Below are positions 1 through 31,640 of a stretch of 36,662 bases of DNA, one piece after another; positions within the stretch are counted from its first letter, which is position 1; each line of letters begins with the position of its first letter. Location of the stretch: contig JAJXVH010000019.1 of assembly GCA_021782205.1 (NCBI GenBank), positions 1 to 36,662 on the forward strand. Direction: 5' to 3'. The DNA comes from a bacterium (GTDB lineage: Bacteria; Elusimicrobiota; Elusimicrobia; UBA1565; UBA9628). The notes beneath the pieces are model-generated. The model saw only the letters and a program-made list of their open reading frames with translations. It was not told the origin of the DNA and ran no database searches. The position numbers and the translations under genes were made by a program.

Positions 1-1209
1 CGGGCGCTGGCGCGCTACGCCGCGCCGCCGCGGGTGGCCGCGGTGCTGGAAGCGGCGCGCGCGCTGGGACCGGACGCCTACGAACGCGCCTGCGCGATGG
101 CCGCCGCCTTCGAGTCCGTGGGCGACCGACGGACGGAGGCTCCCGCCGATCTGAACGATCGGGCAGAGGAGTTGCTTCGCGGCGGCCGCGGCGAGAATTC
201 CCGTGAAACGTTGGAGATTTTCCGTCAGTTCCAGCGTTTGGAAAACGGACAAGGGCACGAGGCACCGCCGATCGCGGTGTCCGCGGACGATCTGCCCCGA
301 ATATGGCTGGAGGCGTTTTCCGACCGCCTGGCCGCGCGCGAGGGCGAGGGCGGCTTCTACCGTCTCGGCGACGGTCGCGGCGCGACCTTGACCGGAGTCA
401 GCGATCCCCCGCCGCTGCTGCTGGCGCTGTCCGCGCGGGAGCGGACCGATCCGGGCGGAGCGCGGCGCGCGGCCGTGGAACTCTACCTGGCCTACAGCGT
501 CGAGCAGGTGGCCCGGATGTTTCCCGGCCAGTGCGCGTGGGCGTCGGCGGCCGGCTTCGACGCGCGCAAGGAGCGCGTCGTGCGCGAGGAGCGGCTGATG
601 TTTCGCGGCTTAGCCATCGCGCGGCGCGAGGTCCATTTCGACGCGGGCGACCGACGCGCGGCCGCCGACATCTGGGCGGATAAGTTCGCCCGCGGAGAAC
701 TGCGGCACCCCGGCCTGGACGAAGCCGTGGCGCAGTTCGTCACGCGCGTGCGCCTGGCGCGCGAATTCTACCCGGACCTGGGCTACCCGGAGTTGAACGA
801 AGACGATTGGCGGCTGATCTACGGCGAGGCCTTCCACGGCCGGAACACGCTCAAGGACGTGGAGCGCGCGGCCCTCCTGCCCCAGGTCGAAAGCTACCTG
901 GGCGTCGCACTGAAGGCGCACCTGGATCACGTCCTGCCCGCGCGGCGCGCCCTCCCCTCCGGACGCACCGGACGCTTTCTCTACTTTTCTCCCGCACGCG
1001 CGGAGCTGAGCGCGCGGCTGGGCGACTTCGCGGGCATGAGCGGCACCCTGAACCTCTGCGAGGGACGCCTGCCGGTCGCCTTCGACATCCTCGCGCCGAA
1101 CCGCCGCACCGTGCAGAAGACCGGCGACCTGGGCTCCTTCTGGCGCAACGCCTATCCCGCGATCAAAAAGGAGCTTCAGCGCCGCTATCCGAAGCACCCT
1201 TGGCCCTGA
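1..1209 (+). CDS. hrpB: ATP-dependent helicase HrpB, C-terminal half (5' truncated by window edge)
   Basis: The frame is open from base 1, so the gene begins outside the window; 402 codons remain of a family that is usually about 800 residues. The helicase motor lies upstream. What is present is the helicase-associated region and the HrpB-specific C-terminal domain. The strongest signal is the last 45 residues (GRLPVAFDILAPNRR, then DLGSFWRNAYP, KKELQRRYPKHPWP), which match the closing signature of HrpB proteins, where the end reads RYPKHPWP. A middle stretch (FDARKERVVREERL) also fits the HrpB pattern. HrpB is a DExH-box RNA helicase-like protein whose cellular role is poorly defined. The last 47 bp overlap the 3' end of the convergent GH1 gene. 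A GTG at 34 is only an internal codon. Identity is fairly secure; HrpA-like helicases lack this C-terminal signature. Confidence 0.85.
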   Translation, partial: RALARYAAPPRVAAVLEAARALGPDAYERACAMAAAFESVGDRRTEAPADLNDRAEELLRGGRGENSRETLEIFRQFQRLENGQGHEAPPIAVSADDLPRIWLEAFSDRLAAREGEGGFYRLGDGRGATLTGVSDPPPLLLALSARERTDPGGARRAAVELYLAYSVEQVARMFPGQCAWASAAGFDARKERVVREERLMFRGLAIARREVHFDAGDRRAAADIWADKFARGELRHPGLDEAVAQFVTRVRLAREFYPDLGYPELNEDDWRLIYGEAFHGRNTLKDVERAALLPQVESYLGVALKAHLDHVLPARRALPSGRTGRFLYFSPARAELSARLGDFAGMSGTLNLCEGRLPVAFDILAPNRRTVQKTGDLGSFWRNAYPAIKKELQRRYPKHPWP

Positions 1210-2647
1210 GCGGCGGCAGGCGCCAGTCCTTCGAGGAAAAGAGACGCATGACGGGCGCGTCCAGGCCGGTCACGGCGTCCGGGGCACGGCAGAAGGGACG
1301 TGGCCTGCCGGCGTGCGCGACGACGGCGGCCCAAGCGTCACGGCGCATTTTTTCCGTGATCTCCCTCGATTCGACGATTTTCTGGAACAGGAAGTAGCTG
1401 GCGCGCGGCACGCGCCGCAGGCCGTGCGCGCGATCGACGGAAAGCAGGCCGAACTTGGGGCAGTAGCCGTCGGCCCATTCCAAGTTGTCGGACAGCGTCC
1501 ACAGAATGTAGCCCGCGACCGGCACGCCCCGCGCGCGGGCGCGGGCGACGGCGGCCAGATGCTCGATCAGGTAAGCCGGACGCAGGACGTCGGTCGAGTC
1601 CGCGACGCCGTTTTCGGTCACGATGATGGGCAGGCCGGGAAAACGGCGGGCGACCTCGGTCAGCGTCGCGAGCAGGCCCGCGGGGTCGACCGCGCGCCCC
1701 GCCTCGGAATATTCCTCGCCCGGGTCGATGTCGAGGCGGCCGTTCTTGATCCACTCCGCGCCGTAGTAGTTCATGCCAAAGAAGTCCATGCGGCCGCGCA
1801 GGCGCTCGGGAAAACGCCAGTTTAGCAGGGCGTCGGGGTAGCGCGCCTCCAGGCGGCCGAGCGCGGTCTTGCCCGTGTAGTGCGCCATGTTGTGCGCCAC
1901 GCCCATTTGAATGCCCGGGTAGTTCGCGTGCGCCCAATCGTAGAGCGCGTCGTGAGCCTCGGCCATGCGGTCCATCGCACGCACCGTCTCGCCGCGCAAC
2001 GGACCCAGCGCCGCCAAGGAATACCACGGATGCCGCCCGCCCGGCGGCCACAGCCCGTAGGAATAGGCCAGCGGCGCGAACACGTCGGCCTCGTTGAACG
2101 TGATCCAGTACGCCACGTCCCCATGATACTCGACGATCATGCGTCGGGAAAATTCCAGGAAATCTTCCTGCGCGCCTGGACGCAGCCAGCCGCCGCGCGC
2201 CTGCTCCCACTTGGGCACGGAATGGTGCATTAAGGTCAGCATGACCTTCATATGGCGCGCGCGGACCATGCGCAGGACCGCGCGGTAGCGTGCGATCGCC
2301 GCCGCGTCGAAGCGGTGCGGCGCGGGCTCCACCCGCCCCCAGTCCACGCCCAGGCGGTAGACCTGGATGCCGGTCTTCGCCGCCCAGTCGAGCTCGACTT
2401 CCGGCTTGCTCCAAAACTCCAGTCGTTTTTCCGGAACCGCCTGGTTTCGGTAGGCCGCGACGTGGCCGCCGTCGGCCCAGTCCTTCCAGATGTCGTCGAG
2501 CGCGTCCTCCGCCTGCCCCGGCGCGCTCGCGATCCCGAAGAAGAACGGCGGCTCGAATCTCGACTCCGCCCGGGAGCTCTCCGCAAAAAATAATAATGCC
2601 GTCACGAGAGCAAGCCTGACGCCAAAAATCCGCTCGCAATGTTTCAT
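1163..2647 (-). CDS. Exported GH1-family glycosidase/transglycosidase resembling plant SFR2
   Basis: Protein of 494 residues with a signal peptide (about 1-28, hydrophobic LALVTALLFFAESSRA) followed by one GH1 TIM barrel. Visible GH1 marks are the acid/base site TFNEADVF (E186), the nucleophile site VTENGVAD (E345) and the late motif LSDNLEWADGY (385-395). The acid/base motif is NEA, where GH1 enzymes normally have NEP. Several stretches match my memory of SENSITIVE TO FREEZING 2, the chloroplast-envelope galactolipid galactosyltransferase: RLEFWSKPEVELDWA, MKVMLTLMHHSVPKW, EEYSEAGRAVDPAGLL, DGYCPKFGLLSVDRAHGL, and a tail with RPFCR and DWR that ordinary beta-glucosidases lack. The function is probably acting on a beta-glycoside, possibly a glycolipid, outside the cytoplasm; this is inference. 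It is divergent from the methyltransferase gene (55 bp apart) and convergent with hrpB. A plain beta-glucosidase or beta-galactosidase is the alternative. Confidence 0.85.
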   Translation of the reverse strand: MKHCERIFGVRLALVTALLFFAESSRAESRFEPPFFFGIASAPGQAEDALDDIWKDWADGGHVAAYRNQAVPEKRLEFWSKPEVELDWAAKTGIQVYRLGVDWGRVEPAPHRFDAAAIARYRAVLRMVRARHMKVMLTLMHHSVPKWEQARGGWLRPGAQEDFLEFSRRMIVEYHGDVAYWITFNEADVFAPLAYSYGLWPPGGRHPWYSLAALGPLRGETVRAMDRMAEAHDALYDWAHANYPGIQMGVAHNMAHYTGKTALGRLEARYPDALLNWRFPERLRGRMDFFGMNYYGAEWIKNGRLDIDPGEEYSEAGRAVDPAGLLATLTEVARRFPGLPIIVTENGVADSTDVLRPAYLIEHLAAVARARARGVPVAGYILWTLSDNLEWADGYCPKFGLLSVDRAHGLRRVPRASYFLFQKIVESREITEKMRRDAWAAVVAHAGRPRPFCRAPDAVTGLDAPVMRLFSSKDWRLPPLRAKGASDSGAEAPF

Positions 2648-2702: not shown

Positions 2703-3545
2703 ATGAGCAACACCATCTACCGGCGCAAATCCGCCCTGGACCGCTTCTACACGCATCCCGACGTCGCGCGCGAGTGTTGGGCGAGAACCGTCTCCCTGTT
2801 CGACACGAAAAGTTTTGATCTGTTTCTGGAGCCATCGGCCGGAAACGGGTCTTTTTTCCGACTCCTGCCCCACGACGCCCGCCGCGGCATCGATCTCGAT
2901 CCGCGCGACGCAGGCATTGAACGCGGAGATTTTCTGGCCATATTCGGTCCCTCCGAGGAACGCGTTCTCACCATCGGCAATCCTCCTTTCGGCCGCGTGG
3001 CCGCGACCGCCGTCCGTTTTTTCAACCGAGCCGCGTCTTTTTCTACGGTGATCGCCTTCATCCTGCCGCGCACGTTCAGAAAAATCTCCGTGCAGAACAA
3101 GCTGGACGCGCGGTTCCATCTTAAGGCGGAATGGGACCTGCCCAAGAATGCGTTCCTATTGGACGGCTCTCCCTATGACGTGCCGTGCTGCTTTCAAATA
3201 TGGGAAAAGCGAGCGTCACCGCGCGCCAGGCCGACAGAGCGAATCGACAATCACGTTTTTGAATTCGCCTCAAAGGACCGCGCTGATTTTGCCGTGCGCC
3301 GCGTCGGCGGCAAAGCCGGCAAGTGCAGCCGCGACCTGGCGACCGCGGCGGAAGTCTCGCATTATTTTTTAAAGCTCAAGGACCCGAAACTTGATCGTCG
3401 CGCGGTCATGGACTTCATCGACGGGCTCGATCTTTCGAAAATCGTCAATGCGACGGCGGGCGTGCGCAGCCTGTCAAAGCCGGAGTTCGTCGAATCTTTT
3501 TTCACGCATTGGCGCCAAACGCCGCCGGGCCAAACTCCGCGCTAA
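2703..3545 (+). CDS. Orphan N6-adenine-type DNA methyltransferase
   Basis: Protein of 280 residues with the two hallmarks of adenine-specific DNA methyltransferases: S-adenosylmethionine motif I, EPSAGNGSF (43-51), and the catalytic motif IV, NPPFG (93-97). An N-terminal RKSALDRFYTHPDVA segment is typical of small phage-like and orphan enzymes that start LDKFYT. I chose the ATG at 2703 because the frame further upstream runs antisense through the GH1 gene and has no domain. No restriction endonuclease gene is adjacent, so it would act as a solitary methylase or as a remnant of a mobile element. Its DNA is visibly less GC-rich than its flanks, with many TTT, AAA and ATT codons, which suggests a separate origin. 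The TAA stop overlaps the TAG stop of the convergent nfo gene by 2 nt. The target sequence cannot be read from the protein. Confidence 0.8.
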   Translation: MSNTIYRRKSALDRFYTHPDVARECWARTVSLFDTKSFDLFLEPSAGNGSFFRLLPHDARRGIDLDPRDAGIERGDFLAIFGPSEERVLTIGNPPFGRVAATAVRFFNRAASFSTVIAFILPRTFRKISVQNKLDARFHLKAEWDLPKNAFLLDGSPYDVPCCFQIWEKRASPRARPTERIDNHVFEFASKDRADFAVRRVGGKAGKCSRDLATAAEVSHYFLKLKDPKLDRRAVMDFIDGLDLSKIVNATAGVRSLSKPEFVESFFTHWRQTPPGQTPR

Positions 3546-4375
3546 GAAACGGCCAGTCCGCGCACGAGCGCCAGGTTGGCCGCGTCGGCGCCCGGTTCCT
3601 TCGGCGTCTCCAATATTCCCGGGATCTCGGAGAATTCCGAGCGCTGGAGCAGGACCTTCAGGCCTTCGAGGCCTAGGCGGCCTTGGCCCCAGTGCCAGTG
3701 GTGCTCGCGGTGCGAACCCAGCAGAGCGCGAGAATCATTGAGGTGGAACGCGCGCACGGCGTCGGCGCCCAGCAGGCGGTGGGCGCGCGCGACGAAACGC
3801 AGAGAGCCTTCGGCGCTGGACAAGTCGTAGCCCGCCGCCCAGGCGTGCGCGGTGTCCAAGCAAAAGCCCGTGATCGGGCCGCCGGGCGGCAACGCGTCGC
3901 GCAGCCGCGCCAGTTCCTCAAGAGTTCCGCCCAGGCGGCGTCCGCCGCCCGGGACGTTTTCCAAAAGAAGCGGGCCGGCGAAGCCCGCCGAGAGAGCCGC
4001 GCGGCGCACGGCGTCGGCGAACAGACGGACGCCGTCCTGAGGCGACGCGTCCGGCGAGTAGGCGCCGGCGTGCAGGACGTAGGCGTCGCCGCCCAGGCCC
4101 GCGCACAGGACGAGTTCGCGCGCCAGGTGCGCCACGGAGCGTTGACGACGCGGCTCGTCGGATGACGCCAGGCTGGGCACGAAGCGCGAATGCACGAGGA
4201 GCCGTCTCAGGCCCAGCGTCCTGCGCGCGGCGCGGAACGCCGTCAGTTCCTCGGCGCCGGGGGCGTGGCCGCGCGGATAGGGAAGTATCTGCAGGGCGTC
4301 GCAGTTCAGCGCGCGGGCCTCATCCAGTGAGGCCGTCAAACCGCGTCGGACGGACGCGTGCAGTCCCAGAATCAC
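3542..4375 (-). CDS. nfo: Deoxyribonuclease IV (AP endonuclease, Nfo family)
   Basis: Protein of 277 residues that cuts DNA at abasic sites in base-excision repair. The metal ligands of the endonuclease IV barrel are visible in order: H62 (VHSRFV), H102 (LHAGAY), E139 (LLENVPG), D174 and H177 (CLDTAHA), H211 (FHLND), the GSHREHHWHWGQG loop (220-232) and E256 (ILETP). In the loop, the Asp of the E. coli enzyme appears as Glu (E224), a conservative change. I chose the GTG at 4375 because it overlaps the TGA of the upstream aldehyde dehydrogenase gene (GTGA, 4 nt spanned) and begins directly at the barrel (ILGLHASV). The frame remains open upstream to 5497, but that part is antisense shadow. It is the last gene of a three-gene coupled operon. 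Confidence 0.92.
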   Translation of the reverse strand: MILGLHASVRRGLTASLDEARALNCDALQILPYPRGHAPGAEELTAFRAARRTLGLRRLLVHSRFVPSLASSDEPRRQRSVAHLARELVLCAGLGGDAYVLHAGAYSPDASPQDGVRLFADAVRRAALSAGFAGPLLLENVPGGGRRLGGTLEELARLRDALPPGGPITGFCLDTAHAWAAGYDLSSAEGSLRFVARAHRLLGADAVRAFHLNDSRALLGSHREHHWHWGQGRLGLEGLKVLLQRSEFSEIPGILETPKEPGADAANLALVRGLAVS

Positions 4376-5805
4376 GGCAGGCCGAGCAGCCGCGAAAGCA
4401 AAGACGTCTTGCGCGCCTCGTAAGGAAACCACCAGGGATCGGGCACGTCGAGCGGCCACTCGTGCACCAGCAAGGACTGCGCCTGGGTCAGCGCGAGGAG
4501 GCCCTCGTCGCCGTGGCGGCGCCACAGGCCGCTCTCCTTGGTGCCGCCGAAAGGCAGGGAACCGAAGCCGTAATGCGTGCCGGGCTCGTTGACGCCGGTC
4601 ATCCCGGCGTCGAGTGCTGCCGCCAGCCGCTCCGCCTTCTCCACGTCGCGCGACCAGACGCTCGCGGCCAGGCCGAAAGGCCCCGCGTTGCACAGCGCGA
4701 CGGCCTCCTGCGCGCGCGCGACCTTCATGACCGCCAGCACGGGACCGAACGTCTCCTCGCTCATCACCGCCATGTCCGGCCGCGCGTCCAGCACCAGCGC
4801 GGGCGCCATGCGCCGGCCCGGCCGGTCCAGCACCTCGCCGCCGAGCACGCGCGCGCCCTTGGCCCGCGCGTCGTCGAGTTGGGCTTGCACGCGGTCCAGC
4901 GCCGAGGGCAGAACAAAACGGCCGATCTCCGCTTCCGGCCCGGACAGCCGCAACGCGGACATGCGCGCGCGCGTTTTTTCGACGAACGCGTCGTGTATCT
5001 CGCCCTCGACGAACGCGCGCTCCACGCCGACGCAGACCTGACCCGCGTTTTGGAAGGCGCCCCAGACCGCCGCCGCCGACGCGCGCTCCAGCGGCGCGTC
5101 GGCCAGCACGATCATGGGATGCTTGCCGCCGAGCTCCAAGATGGCCGGCGCCAGCCTGGCCGCGGCGCGCGCCGCCACGGCGCGCCCCGCCGCCGCCGAA
5201 CCGGTGAACAAGACCAGGTCCGACGCGTCGGCCACGCGTTCGCCCGCCGCCGCGCCGCCGGGCACCACCGACAGCAGGCCCTCGGGCAGAAGGCCGGTCG
5301 CCGCGACCGCAGCTTCCAGCCATAACGCGGTGCGCGTGGCCCATTCGGAGGGCTTCAGCAGGACCGCGTTTCCGGCCAGCATCGCGCAGAACGCGTCGCC
5401 GAACGGGATCAGAAAGGGCATGTTCCACGGCGAGATCACCCCAATCAGTCCGCGCGGCCGCCTTCGCATCGCCGCGCGCTTGTTGGCGAAAATCCAAGGC
5501 ACGCGGACCGAACGTTCGTCGAGAAGACGCCGGGCGGACTTCGTGAAGTGGTCGACGAGCAAAGCCGCTGTACCGAACTCAAAAAGTTCGATCTCGGCCG
5601 CCGGCTTGCCGGTCTCTTCTGAGACCACGGCCGCGGCTTCCGCTCGCCGCCGCGCCAGTTCCTCCCAGACCCCGCGCAAGGCCGCGACTCTCTGAGAGAC
5701 GTCGGCGCGACTCCACGCCAGGAACGCCGCGCGTGCCGCCGCCGCTTTTTGCGCGGTCAACTCCGGGGGCGTCTCCGGGTGCGACCCGAGAATCTCCAGG
5801 CTCAT
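4372..5805 (-). CDS. NAD(P)-dependent aldehyde dehydrogenase family protein
   Basis: Protein of 477 residues, the usual length for this family, which oxidises aldehydes to carboxylates. Visible marks: the nucleotide-binding and active-site Asn motif SPWNMP (N127), KPSEWA (K151), the general base LELGGK (E224) and the catalytic cysteine GQVCVGVERAFV (C258); a late EETFGPV segment is also present. The GxVCxGxER style and MRRRPRGLIGVISPWN resemble succinate-semialdehyde and coniferyl-type aldehyde dehydrogenases, but the substrate cannot be fixed. The ATG at 5805 overlaps the TGA of the dipeptidase gene (ATGA), and its own TGA overlaps the GTG of nfo, so it is translationally coupled on both sides. 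The same frame is open to 6006, but that lies inside the dipeptidase gene. Confidence 0.9.
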   Translation of the reverse strand: MSLEILGSHPETPPELTAQKAAAARAAFLAWSRADVSQRVAALRGVWEELARRRAEAAAVVSEETGKPAAEIELFEFGTAALLVDHFTKSARRLLDERSVRVPWIFANKRAAMRRRPRGLIGVISPWNMPFLIPFGDAFCAMLAGNAVLLKPSEWATRTALWLEAAVAATGLLPEGLLSVVPGGAAAGERVADASDLVLFTGSAAAGRAVAARAAARLAPAILELGGKHPMIVLADAPLERASAAAVWGAFQNAGQVCVGVERAFVEGEIHDAFVEKTRARMSALRLSGPEAEIGRFVLPSALDRVQAQLDDARAKGARVLGGEVLDRPGRRMAPALVLDARPDMAVMSEETFGPVLAVMKVARAQEAVALCNAGPFGLAASVWSRDVEKAERLAAALDAGMTGVNEPGTHYGFGSLPFGGTKESGLWRRHGDEGLLALTQAQSLLVHEWPLDVPDPWWFPYEARKTSLLSRLLGLP

Positions 5806-9269: not shown

Positions 9270-11105
9270 TCAGGGCGTCGGGACCCAGAAATAGCGGCCG
9301 GTCGTGTCGATGTAGCCGCGCGCGCCGTTGAGGAGCACCGGAGCCAGGCCCATCGCCGGGTCGAAATGCGGAATTTCGACCTGGCCCTTGTTGCGGCCGA
9401 TGAAGCCGTTGAGGACGCTCGGCAGAGGTCCGCTCGACGAGGACTCCGGATCACCCAGTTCCGGGGTCACGACCACGTTGCCGGACGTGTCCACGTAGCG
9501 GTAGTCGCCGCCGTCGAGAGCCAGAGCCAGACCGTCCGAGTAGGCGAACACGGCGTCGAAGCTGGGCGCGACGGCCTGCCTTCCGCGGAGATCGATGAAG
9601 CCCCACTTGTCTCCCTCCAGCACCGCGGCCAGTCCGTCGTGAAAGCTGAGCGCGCAGCCGAAGCCGGGAGTGATGGCCATGGCGCCGGTCTTGTCGATAT
9701 AGCCGAAGGAGCCGCCGTCGTTTTCCACGGCCGCGAGGCCCTGGGAGAATCCCAAGGTGTCGCGGTACTGCGCGGGCACCACGAAGGCTCCGGACGCGTC
9801 GACGTAGCCCCACAGCCCGTTCATGCGCACGGCGGCCAAGCCTTCGGTGAAGCCGAACGTCGCCTCGTAGCGAGGCGCGATCACGGTGGCCCCCGACTTG
9901 TCGATGAAGCCCCACTGTCCGTCCTGCTCCACGCCGGCGGTGCCGTCAGGAGAAAAGCCGGTCGTGTTGTCGTATTGCGGTTCGATGACCACGTCTCCCG
10001 ACGGGTCGATAAAGCCCCATTTCCCGTCCTGCTGAATGGGCGCAAGCCCCTGAGAGAACCCGTAAGCGGCCTCGAACTGCGGCGCGATCACGGTCTGGCC
10101 CGTGGCGTCGATGTAGCCCCACGCGCCGCCGGATTTCACCGCGCACAGCCCTTCCGAAAATCCCCACGCGGCGGAATACTCCGGGTCGATGGCGATCGCC
10201 CCCTCGCGGTTGATGAAGCCCCACTTGCCGCCGACGCGGACGGCCGCCAAGCCTTGACTGAAATCTCCCGCCTCCGCGAAATCCGGAGCGATGGTGGCCG
10301 CGCCCGACTTGTCGATGTAGCCGTAAAGGCCGCCGACGCGGATGGCCGCGAGGCCTTCGGAGAAGCCGCGCGCGAAGTCGAAGCGCGTCGACGCGCGGCG
10401 CCCGTCGGCGCGCACGAGGCGGCGCTGAGCCGGGTTCGCGGACGCGGGAGCGGCGGCCAGGGCATACACCGGAGGCAAGCGCCGTCCGTTTTTGTCGATA
10501 TAGAATGAAGACGCGCCCGCGCGCACATGGGCGCGTCCATTTTCAAAGCTGGAGGCGTGATCATAGCACGCGAGGACCGGCCAGCGCCCGCGGCGGTCGA
10601 TGTAGCCCCACGCCCCATGAACGCGGACGGCGGCGCGGTCCTCGGCGAACTCCCTGACTTTCTCGAAATCCGGCCGGATCACCCAGCGCCCGCGACGGTC
10701 GATGAAGCCCCAGCGCCCGCCGGTCGCGGCGGGCGCCAAGCCGCCGGAGAACGAGCCGGCGGACTCGAAGCGCGGTTGGATGACCCAATGGCCGAGGCGG
10801 TCGATGAAGCCGTAGCGCCCATGATAGGAGACGGCCGCCAGCCCCTCGCTAAATCGTCCCGCGTCGTCGAAGCGCTCCGGGATCACCAGCCGCTTCTTGC
10901 GGTCGACGTAGCCGCGCTTGCCGCCGACGACCACCGGCTCGGGATCGTCGCCTTGGACCCAGCCGAAACCGGACGGCAGCTGGGGATTGAGCACGAAGTT
11001 GCCGTTCTGATCGTGATAGCCCCAGGAGCCTCCGGACAGCTGGCCCGGGTCCGCGCCCGCCGGCGCGGCGGCCGCCAGCGCCGCGGCCAGCAGCGCCGCC
11101 TTCAT
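9270..11105 (-). CDS. Exported WG-repeat protein
   Basis: Protein of 611 residues with a signal peptide (1-18, AALAAAAPAGA) and about 17 copies of a WG (KWG) repeat: a core such as KWGFIDPSG followed by an xVIxPQF strand and a GFSxGLAAV segment. The Trp/aromatic-Gly pair recurs every 34 residues (for example 295, 329, 363, 398, 432, 467, 501), interrupted near 205-255 by an insertion with degenerate repeats. Such repeats form beta-rich ligand or protein-binding structures; no enzyme site is seen. The ATG at 11105 has a GGGAGGGG ribosome site and overlaps the TGA of the histidine kinase gene (ATGA). It is likely to be periplasmic or surface-exposed and made together with the kinase. A role as partner of the sensor domain is inference. 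Confidence 0.88.
   Translation of the reverse strand: MKAALLAAALAAAAPAGADPGQLSGGSWGYHDQNGNFVLNPQLPSGFGWVQGDDPEPVVVGGKRGYVDRKKRLVIPERFDDAGRFSEGLAAVSYHGRYGFIDRLGHWVIQPRFESAGSFSGGLAPAATGGRWGFIDRRGRWVIRPDFEKVREFAEDRAAVRVHGAWGYIDRRGRWPVLACYDHASSFENGRAHVRAGASSFYIDKNGRRLPPVYALAAAPASANPAQRRLVRADGRRASTRFDFARGFSEGLAAIRVGGLYGYIDKSGAATIAPDFAEAGDFSQGLAAVRVGGKWGFINREGAIAIDPEYSAAWGFSEGLCAVKSGGAWGYIDATGQTVIAPQFEAAYGFSQGLAPIQQDGKWGFIDPSGDVVIEPQYDNTTGFSPDGTAGVEQDGQWGFIDKSGATVIAPRYEATFGFTEGLAAVRMNGLWGYVDASGAFVVPAQYRDTLGFSQGLAAVENDGGSFGYIDKTGAMAITPGFGCALSFHDGLAAVLEGDKWGFIDLRGRQAVAPSFDAVFAYSDGLALALDGGDYRYVDTSGNVVVTPELGDPESSSSGPLPSVLNGFIGRNKGQVEIPHFDPAMGLAPVLLNGARGYIDTTGRYFWVPTP
9300..11025 (-). repeat. Coding tandem repeat, about 102-bp period (WG repeats)
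   Basis: About 17 diverged units of 34 codons inside the WG-repeat gene. The copies differ strongly at the DNA level, so this is an old protein repeat and not a recent expansion. Confidence 0.8.
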
Positions 11106-12598
11106 GCCGCCCCTCCCGTCCGCGCCGACTTGCGCGCCTCGACGCGCCCCCCGCCCCACTCGTCGAGCGAAAACGAAAACTCCGAGCCGACGCCCAGCCG
11201 GCTGTCGACCTCCAGCCGGCTGCCGTGCGCCTCCACGATGCGCCGCGTCAAGGAGAGGCCGATGCCGAAGCCCTTCGGCGTCATGCGCCGCCCTTGCTCG
11301 GTGCGGTAGTGGCCGCGCAGGATGCGCGTCTTGTCCTCCTCGGACAGGCCGATGCCCGTGTCGCGCACGAACAGCCGGTAGCTGCCGGGACGGCCTGGTT
11401 CCGCGCGCAGGCCGGCGGCGATGCTGCCCTTCTCCGGCGTGTATTTGATCGCGTTGCTGAACAAATTGCTGATGGCCAAGCTCAGGATCGCGGGGTCGGC
11501 GCGCAGCGCGGGGGCGGTCTCGGGCAGTTCCAAGGTCAGCCGAAGTTTTTTGCGCAGGCACAGCGGCCGCATGCGCCGCGCGGTGGTGCGCAGAAGCCCC
11601 TTGACGTCCGCGGCTTCCACCGCGGCGTCCAGCCGCCCGGCCTCCACGCGGCCGTGGCTGAGCACGTTGAGGACCTCGCCGCCGAGCACCTCGACGTTCG
11701 AGCGCACGATCTCGAACAAGGGCTCCGACTCCGCGCGCTGCGCGGGCGAAAGGCGCTCGGCCAGCAGGAACACCGCGTTGTTGATGATCGACAGCGCGTT
11801 GCCGAACTCGTGGCTGACGGCGGAGACCAGGCTGGTCTTGAACTCGTTGAGCTCCTTCTCGCGCTCGAACTGGGCGTTGAGCCGGCGCGCCATGTCGGAA
11901 AAGCGCGACGCCAGGCTGTCGAGCTCCGCGATCGCGGGCGACACGGACGCGGACCAGTCCTCGCCCAAGCGCCAGCGCCCGCCGGCCTCGTCGAGCGCGG
12001 CGATCGGCCGGAGAACGAAAACGTAGAGCAGGAAGACGCCGAGGACCGAGGCGGCCAGCTCCGTGAAAAGCCGCACGACATCGGCCTTCAGCGAGTCGCC
12101 GCGCGCGCGGGCCAGGCGCCATTCCAGCTCGTCGGAGGCCGCGTCGCCCAAAGCCGAGAGCGTCTCCAGGAGTTCGTCGCGACGGCCCCGCGCCTCGCCC
12201 GCCGCGGCCTTCCGGGACGACGCCGTCCGGTCCTCGGCAAAGAGGAACGCGGCCAGCGCGCGCTCCACGTCCGCGCAGCCCGTCGAGAGCGTCGCCTCGG
12301 CGCAGTAGGGCTTGAGTTCCGCCGCCCGGCGGCTCAGCAGGGCCGCCGCCGCGGCCCGCTTGGCCGTCCACTCGCCGCCGCCACGCGTCCGGCACAGTTC
12401 GGTCAGCAAGTCCACGCGGCGCACCCCGCCGCGCAGGCTCGGCAGGCTGCGCAGCACGGAGACGTCCTGCTCCAGCGCGTCCTCCAGGCGCTCGTTGCGG
12501 CGCTGGTCCCGCCAGAACGACAGCAACGCCGCGGGAATCAAGACTGCGACCAGCACGGCCAGGATCGCCAGATGCGAGCGCGGCGAGGCGCGGCTCAT
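11102..12598 (-). CDS. Membrane sensor histidine kinase
   Basis: Protein of 498 residues. A first membrane segment (about 9-27) and a second (about 181-198) enclose an extracytoplasmic domain of about 150 residues with three cysteines (C69, C99, C108). A HAMP-like linker follows, then the dimerisation and phosphoacceptor helix with AVSHEFGNAL (H263), and an ATPase domain with N-box NLFSNAIKYTP, G1 DTGIGL and G2 GFGIGLSL. The H-box is unusual: GN replaces the common RT or RN after HE-F/L. No response regulator gene is in the window. The gene follows the RND pump gene by 80 nt on the same strand and overlaps the WG-repeat gene by 4 nt, so it could report envelope or pump-related stress. The ligand is unknown. 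Confidence 0.9.
   Translation of the reverse strand: MSRASPRSHLAILAVLVAVLIPAALLSFWRDQRRNERLEDALEQDVSVLRSLPSLRGGVRRVDLLTELCRTRGGGEWTAKRAAAAALLSRRAAELKPYCAEATLSTGCADVERALAAFLFAEDRTASSRKAAAGEARGRRDELLETLSALGDAASDELEWRLARARGDSLKADVVRLFTELAASVLGVFLLYVFVLRPIAALDEAGGRWRLGEDWSASVSPAIAELDSLASRFSDMARRLNAQFEREKELNEFKTSLVSAVSHEFGNALSIINNAVFLLAERLSPAQRAESEPLFEIVRSNVEVLGGEVLNVLSHGRVEAGRLDAAVEAADVKGLLRTTARRMRPLCLRKKLRLTLELPETAPALRADPAILSLAISNLFSNAIKYTPEKGSIAAGLRAEPGRPGSYRLFVRDTGIGLSEEDKTRILRGHYRTEQGRRMTPKGFGIGLSLTRRIVEAHGSRLEVDSRLGVGSEFSFSLDEWGGGRVEARKSARTGGAA

Positions 12599-29804: not shown

Positions 29805-31640
<1,836 letters not shown>

Follow-up and report, generated by a model that had tools for sequence, protein, structure and literature searches.

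A GH1 protein with a predicted signal peptide from an Elusimicrobia genus groups with the plant galactolipid galactosyltransferase SFR2

The window analysed here, a stretch of 36,662 nucleotides of bacterial DNA, encodes a 494-residue protein that, judged by its sequence and its place in phylogenetic trees, is a member of the SFR2 clade of GH1, beyond what generic GH1 similarity or chance would give. SFR2 (AT3G06510), a galactolipid:galactolipid galactosyltransferase, is a highly divergent GH1 of plants that rebuilds chloroplast-envelope lipids during freezing. Clade membership, the catalytic residues E186 and E345, a complete GH1 fold and an SFR2-type tail can all be read from the bacterial sequence, and the assignment of the protein as a retaining beta-glycosidase is well supported. 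Most of the bacteria found to carry the SFR2 branch are related to predators of the Bdellovibrio type. As to activity, we consider it roughly an even call that the protein is an exported, catalytically intact retaining GH1 beta-glycosidase of the SFR2 clade that would hydrolyse, rather than transfer sugar from, a beta-galactoside or beta-glucoside of an amphiphilic or lipid-linked kind.

The protein and its match to plant SFR2

The open reading frame begins with ATG and contains no internal stops. Pfam Glyco_hydro_1 (PF00232) matches the protein at 172.4 bits (curated cut-off 22.6), GH1 is its sole placement by Pfam and NCBIfam, and it is the only GH1 in the window's genome; the same protein is present in L003 and in G195, a genome of the same genus. 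The features discussed below are as follows.

1163..2647, minus strand: SFR2-clade GH1 gene, 494 residues (open reading frame, Pfam GH1, SFR2 match, clade, AlphaFold2 model)
2567..2647, minus strand: predicted N-terminal signal peptide, residues 1-27, MKHCERIFGVRLALVTALLFFAESSRA, probable cut between SRA and ES (sequence; hydrophobic core)
2486..2545, minus strand: SFR2-type N-terminal block FFFGIASAPGQAEDALDDIW, residues 35-54, including Gln45 (alignment and segment test)
2459..2485, minus strand: site of Loop A of plant SFR2, 9 residues here versus 58 in SFR2 (alignment; Loop A as defined in PMC11155703 and PMC11525325)
2087..2095, minus strand: acid/base motif N185-E186-A187, NEA (E186 invariant in 49 of 49, following residue variable)
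1607..1618, minus strand: nucleophile motif T344-E345-N346-G347 (invariant wherever sequence is present)
1448..1480, minus strand: EWADGYCPKFG block, residues 390-400, with Cys396 (nearly invariant; EWADGYGPKFG in SFR2)
1220..1363, minus strand: SFR2-type C-terminal tail, residues 429-476, RPFC to KDWR, folded beyond the barrel (alignment, segment test, model)
1289-1291, minus strand: Cys453, within the tail (alignment)

The Arabidopsis SFR2 sequence used as query, which we take to be 622 residues long with catalytic landmarks at E267 and E429, was a reconstruction rather than a database copy and was checked against published landmarks. Residues S90, K136, A550 and L580, named in PMC11155703, were all correct, and DGYGPKF, encoded by a cotton SFR2 primer in the same paper, is present in it. 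Against this query the window protein scored 317 bits (38% identity, E 7e-106), compared with at most 155 bits for solved GH1 structures, 162 for plasmid records and 194 for the rest of the panel. With SFR2 as query, the window protein reached 312 bits and SFR2's closest bacterial relatives up to 411, while no solved GH1, plant ones included, exceeded 168. A profile built on 22 bacterial relatives gave SFR2 559.7 bits, within the range of near-complete family members (485-743), and gave the best other GH1 299.

The likeness extends along the chain. The catalytic residues, the FFFG.A.AP..ED.LDD.W block, KxFWSxP, HHSxP, YSExGR, EWADGYxPKFG and a tail with RPFxR and DWR are common to both proteins, and the segments named in the sequence-only reading are all present and all align with SFR2: FFFGIASAPGQAEDALDDIW, RLEFWSKPEVEL, MLTLMHHSVPKW, EEYSEAGRAVDPAGLL, EWADGYCPKFGLLSVDRA, RPFCR and KDWR. 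Searched on its own, the N-terminal block of SFR2 found the window protein at E 2e-15 (other GH1s 0.055 or worse), and the tail, a match proposed earlier and borne out here, did so at E 1e-6 (other GH1s 0.27 or worse). An AlphaFold2 model built with the 22 relatives as input had a mean pLDDT of 90.9 and an ordered tail at residues 429-477. The best Foldseek matches of the model were ordinary GH1 beta-glycosidases (TM 0.72, about 25% identity). Archaeal and bacterial enzymes of this kind (1vff from Pyrococcus horikoshii, 4ha3 from Acidilobus, 6z1h) have the barrel and active site in common with the window protein (at most 155 bits) but neither the N-terminal block nor the tail of SFR2 type, and in the tree 1vff and the panel members are not part of the clade.

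The two proteins also differ. Bacterial members have 9-12 residues where SFR2 has the 58 of Loop A, and the loop is absent from every bacterial member aligned. The window protein lacks a 55-residue C-terminal extension past DWR; the first part of the SFR2 segment A550-L580 aligns up to DWR and the rest is missing. It carries a signal peptide where SFR2 has an envelope anchor, and Gln45 and a Cys396/Cys453 pair where SFR2 has His and no pair. As a side observation, two bacterial members (L010 and L120) continue for about 165 residues past the DWR tail.

Active site, cysteine pair and export

E186 and E345, together with H141, N185, N293, Y295, W383, E390 and W391, are invariant wherever sequence is present. 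The sequence-only reading had singled out the NEA motif as a departure from a nearly invariant NEP. The motif is indeed there, but it is neither special nor rare in this family: the acid/base Glu never changes, while the residue that follows N-E (position 187) is Pro in 29, Ala in 10, Gly in 6, Ser in 2 and Val in 2 of the 49 family sequences. NEA is therefore one of several family states rather than a mark of altered catalysis, and we rejected the view that it is catalytically special. At position 45, where GH1 enzymes have the Gln that binds sugar in the -1 site, 27 sequences have Gln and 22 His; SFR2 has His, and the Gln/His switch is common to the bacterial family and SFR2.

The earlier proposal of a signal peptide holds by inspection: residues 1-27 combine a positive start, a hydrophobic core of 2.3 KD (most of the family is alike) and a probable cut between SRA and ES, and would act as a Sec signal peptide through which the protein is probably exported. 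Cys396 (in DGYC) and Cys453 (in RPFC) are the only cysteines of the mature window protein, and wherever a bacterial row is complete at these sites and has one of the two, it has the other as well (41 rows). L064, L109, L110, L112 and L113 have neither cysteine nor a signal peptide, and the incomplete L111 agrees in the part that it covers. Both cysteines are also missing from SFR2, a protein reported from the chloroplast outer envelope; these sequences without the pair form three separate groups on the tree. Of the few rows with both cysteines that were clipped at the N-terminus in the alignment, L128 among them, the four followed up in full length (L015, L017, L021 and L023) show signal sequences. 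Because the pair goes with export signals and is missing from non-exported members and SFR2, the simplest reading is that a Cys396-Cys453 disulfide in exported members would hold the SFR2-type tail in place next to the loop that binds sugar.

L064, L109-L111 and L112-L113 make up two bacterial sub-branches with neither signal peptide nor cysteine pair, and genome G344 holds one exported and one non-exported copy (L064/L149), which are natural paralogues. In L015, L017 and L021, of Oligoflexia type, a possible lipoprotein signal (LAAC, LMSC) precedes the SFR2-like domain, consistent with possible membrane anchoring.

Distribution and the origin of SFR2

The bacterial family comprises 49 distinct sequences. 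A pattern scan of about 85,000 species genomes, which required an exact short peptide and can therefore miss members, returned 24 loci labelled Elusimicrobia, Bacteriovoracaceae, Bdellovibrio, Silvanigrella, Oligoflexaceae or, vaguely, 'Proteobacteria'. Whole-genome searches found the family in 30 of 369 genomes of the phylum Bdellovibrionota, in 14 of 58 genomes of an Oligoflexia-type phylum (that of an Oligoflexaceae MAG, and including a so-called Betaproteobacteria MAG), and in 5 of 341 genomes of the window's phylum, where scores drop from 718 to 152 bits. All five of these carriers belong to the window's Elusimicrobia genus (5 of its 19 genomes). No family member was found in plasmid records (best match 162 bits), in phages, whose matches were ordinary GH1s, or in the viral contigs searched. 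Gene neighbourhoods compared across lineages showed no conserved partner, flanks being common only to close relatives; this is a solitary gene, set in different surroundings and patchy in occurrence. An APH-family kinase gene adjoins the SFR2-like gene in L010-L012.

We built three trees, of 81, 67 and 66 rows. In the 81- and 66-row trees every bacterial member and SFR2 form one clade (100/100), so the window protein groups with SFR2 rather than with ordinary bacterial beta-glucosidases, and the family bears, as had been suggested, on where SFR2 came from. Neither outcome that the sequence-only reading had named as refuting it, a tree with SFR2 far away or a missing match in the C-terminal tail, was observed. 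Within this clade the five Elusimicrobia-genus sequences are a 100/100 group inside a Bacteriovoracia group (100/98 or better). Because these copies nest among Bacteriovoracia, lateral transfer from a bacterium of that kind is the most likely way in which the genus acquired the gene.

The position of the plant protein is less firm. SFR2 falls among Oligoflexia-type sequences at 97/88 in the 81-row tree, a placement that is not starred in the 67-row tree and is unresolved in the 66-row tree. A bacteria-only clade excluding plants was 15-19 log units less likely, with AU p values of 0.214 (81-row), 0.072 (67-row) and 0.039 (66-row), the last of which rests on adding a second reconstructed plant sequence (rice) that is less well checked; these values do not settle the matter, and nesting of plants inside bacteria cannot be taken as proven. 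The bacterial distribution of the branch suggests, short of proof, that plants obtained the SFR2 gene from bacteria. We propose tentatively, at somewhat less than an even chance, that streptophyte SFR2 derives from an Oligoflexia/Bdellovibrionota-type bacterium, and that an exported, disulfide-stapled glycosidase would have become an envelope galactolipid transferase once it had shed its cysteines and export signal and acquired Loop A. In the literature searched, outside which key subscription papers lie, we found neither bacterial SFR2-clade members nor a lateral origin of SFR2. With a 49-sequence bacterial family, and SFR2 beside or inside it in trees, that origin is now testable.

Hydrolysis, transfer and the likely substrate

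The sequence-only reading had proposed that the enzyme remodels membrane glycolipids, which is not established: Loop A is absent, no neighbour is conserved, and the MGDG_synth family (PF06925) occurs in none of the 30 Bdellovibrionota carriers. Instead, we regard it as more likely that the enzyme hydrolyses an amphiphilic beta-glycoside somewhere outside the cytoplasm than that it transfers galactose within the cell's own membrane. Hydrolysis is preferred to SFR2-like transfer because the loop needed for transfer is missing, and also because nothing in the genomes ties the gene to glycolipid synthesis and the gene stands alone. The protein would be exported through its Sec signal peptide and would catalyse a double displacement with E186 as acid/base and E345 as nucleophile. 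Cys396, which adjoins the sugar-binding E390-W391, may bond to Cys453 and so pin the tail beside the active site. Its substrate, a beta-galactoside or beta-glucoside of amphiphilic or lipid-linked nature, may be present at the cell envelope or in the debris of prey or algae; analogy with SFR2 and conservation of the tail make a link to lipid plausible. The residues of a hydrophobic patch near the SFR2 active site were reportedly given by Roston et al. in 2014.

The strongest alternative, which we consider possible but with a chance well short of even, is an exported scavenging beta-glycosidase whose substrates would be soluble beta-glucosides or beta-galactosides, such as oligosaccharides or glycosides from algae or plants. 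Kinship with SFR2 would then reflect fold and ancestry alone, lipid specificity having arisen in the plant line. GH1s are typically broad beta-glycosidases, and the stand-alone, patchily distributed gene, the absence of any association with glycolipid genes and the missing Loop A would all fit. Against this, the N-terminal block and tail, missing from ordinary GH1s, are kept in both the bacterial family and SFR2, which implies some common constraint beyond the barrel.

That the protein is instead a true bacterial GGGT, a transgalactosidase moving sugar between glycolipids and remodelling the cell's own envelope, appears improbable to us, even though it belongs to the same clade as SFR2 and has an intact active site. 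Loop A and a C-terminal segment have been reported as necessary for SFR2 transfer (PMC11155703); the bacterial proteins lack the former, and the window protein has the 550-580 segment only in part. A comparison, by description only, with the Marchantia clade II paralogue MpGGGT2 points the same way: this SFR2-like plant protein of the same family, from a clade with a significantly shorter Loop A, is weakly cytoplasmic, and its synthesis of TGDG was not detected (PMC11525325). The window's genome does encode an MGDG_synth-family protein (PF06925, 72 bits), a point in favour both of the preferred reading and of glycolipid transfer. Yet this family is nearly genus-wide, in 5 of 5 carriers of the SFR2-like gene and 12 of 14 non-carriers, and in Bdellovibrionota it is found in 0 of 30 carriers versus 24 of 339 non-carriers (Fisher p 0.24). 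Since PF06925, the family tested, occurs in the genus whether or not the SFR2-like gene is there, and is absent from the 30 Bdellovibrionota carriers, it provides no genomic link to glycolipid synthesis, and we rejected its co-occurrence as a substrate clue. An ordinary bacterial GH1 with SFR2-like motifs arising by chance or generically is hardly credible: Pfam and NCBIfam assign only GH1, but the bit-score gap, the segment tests and the 100/100 clade speak against it, and the tree refutes it unless the reconstructed SFR2 sequence is badly wrong.

Should these enzymes prove to act on lipids, a plant-type envelope enzyme would be in use by predatory bacteria. As natural variants without Loop A but with the core and tail, they would separate the needs of lipid recognition from those of transfer.

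Elsewhere in the window, a gene divergent from the GH1 gene (2703-3545, plus strand) encodes a 280-residue DNA methyltransferase-like protein (PADLOC type II MTase, E 1.7e-42; no Pfam match), and its G+C of 0.59 versus 0.68 for the window marks it as possibly a recent arrival. The 651-residue frame at 3542-5497 (minus strand) has an endonuclease IV domain (Nfo, TIGR00587) in residues 376-646 only; its N-terminal half is without matches, and its TTG start may lie too far upstream. A 1041-residue protein at 9270-12395 (minus strand) contains at least 11 WG beta repeats, and a 611-residue frame at 29805-31640 (minus strand) fuses an acetyl-CoA hydrolase/transferase to a GNAT acetyltransferase domain.
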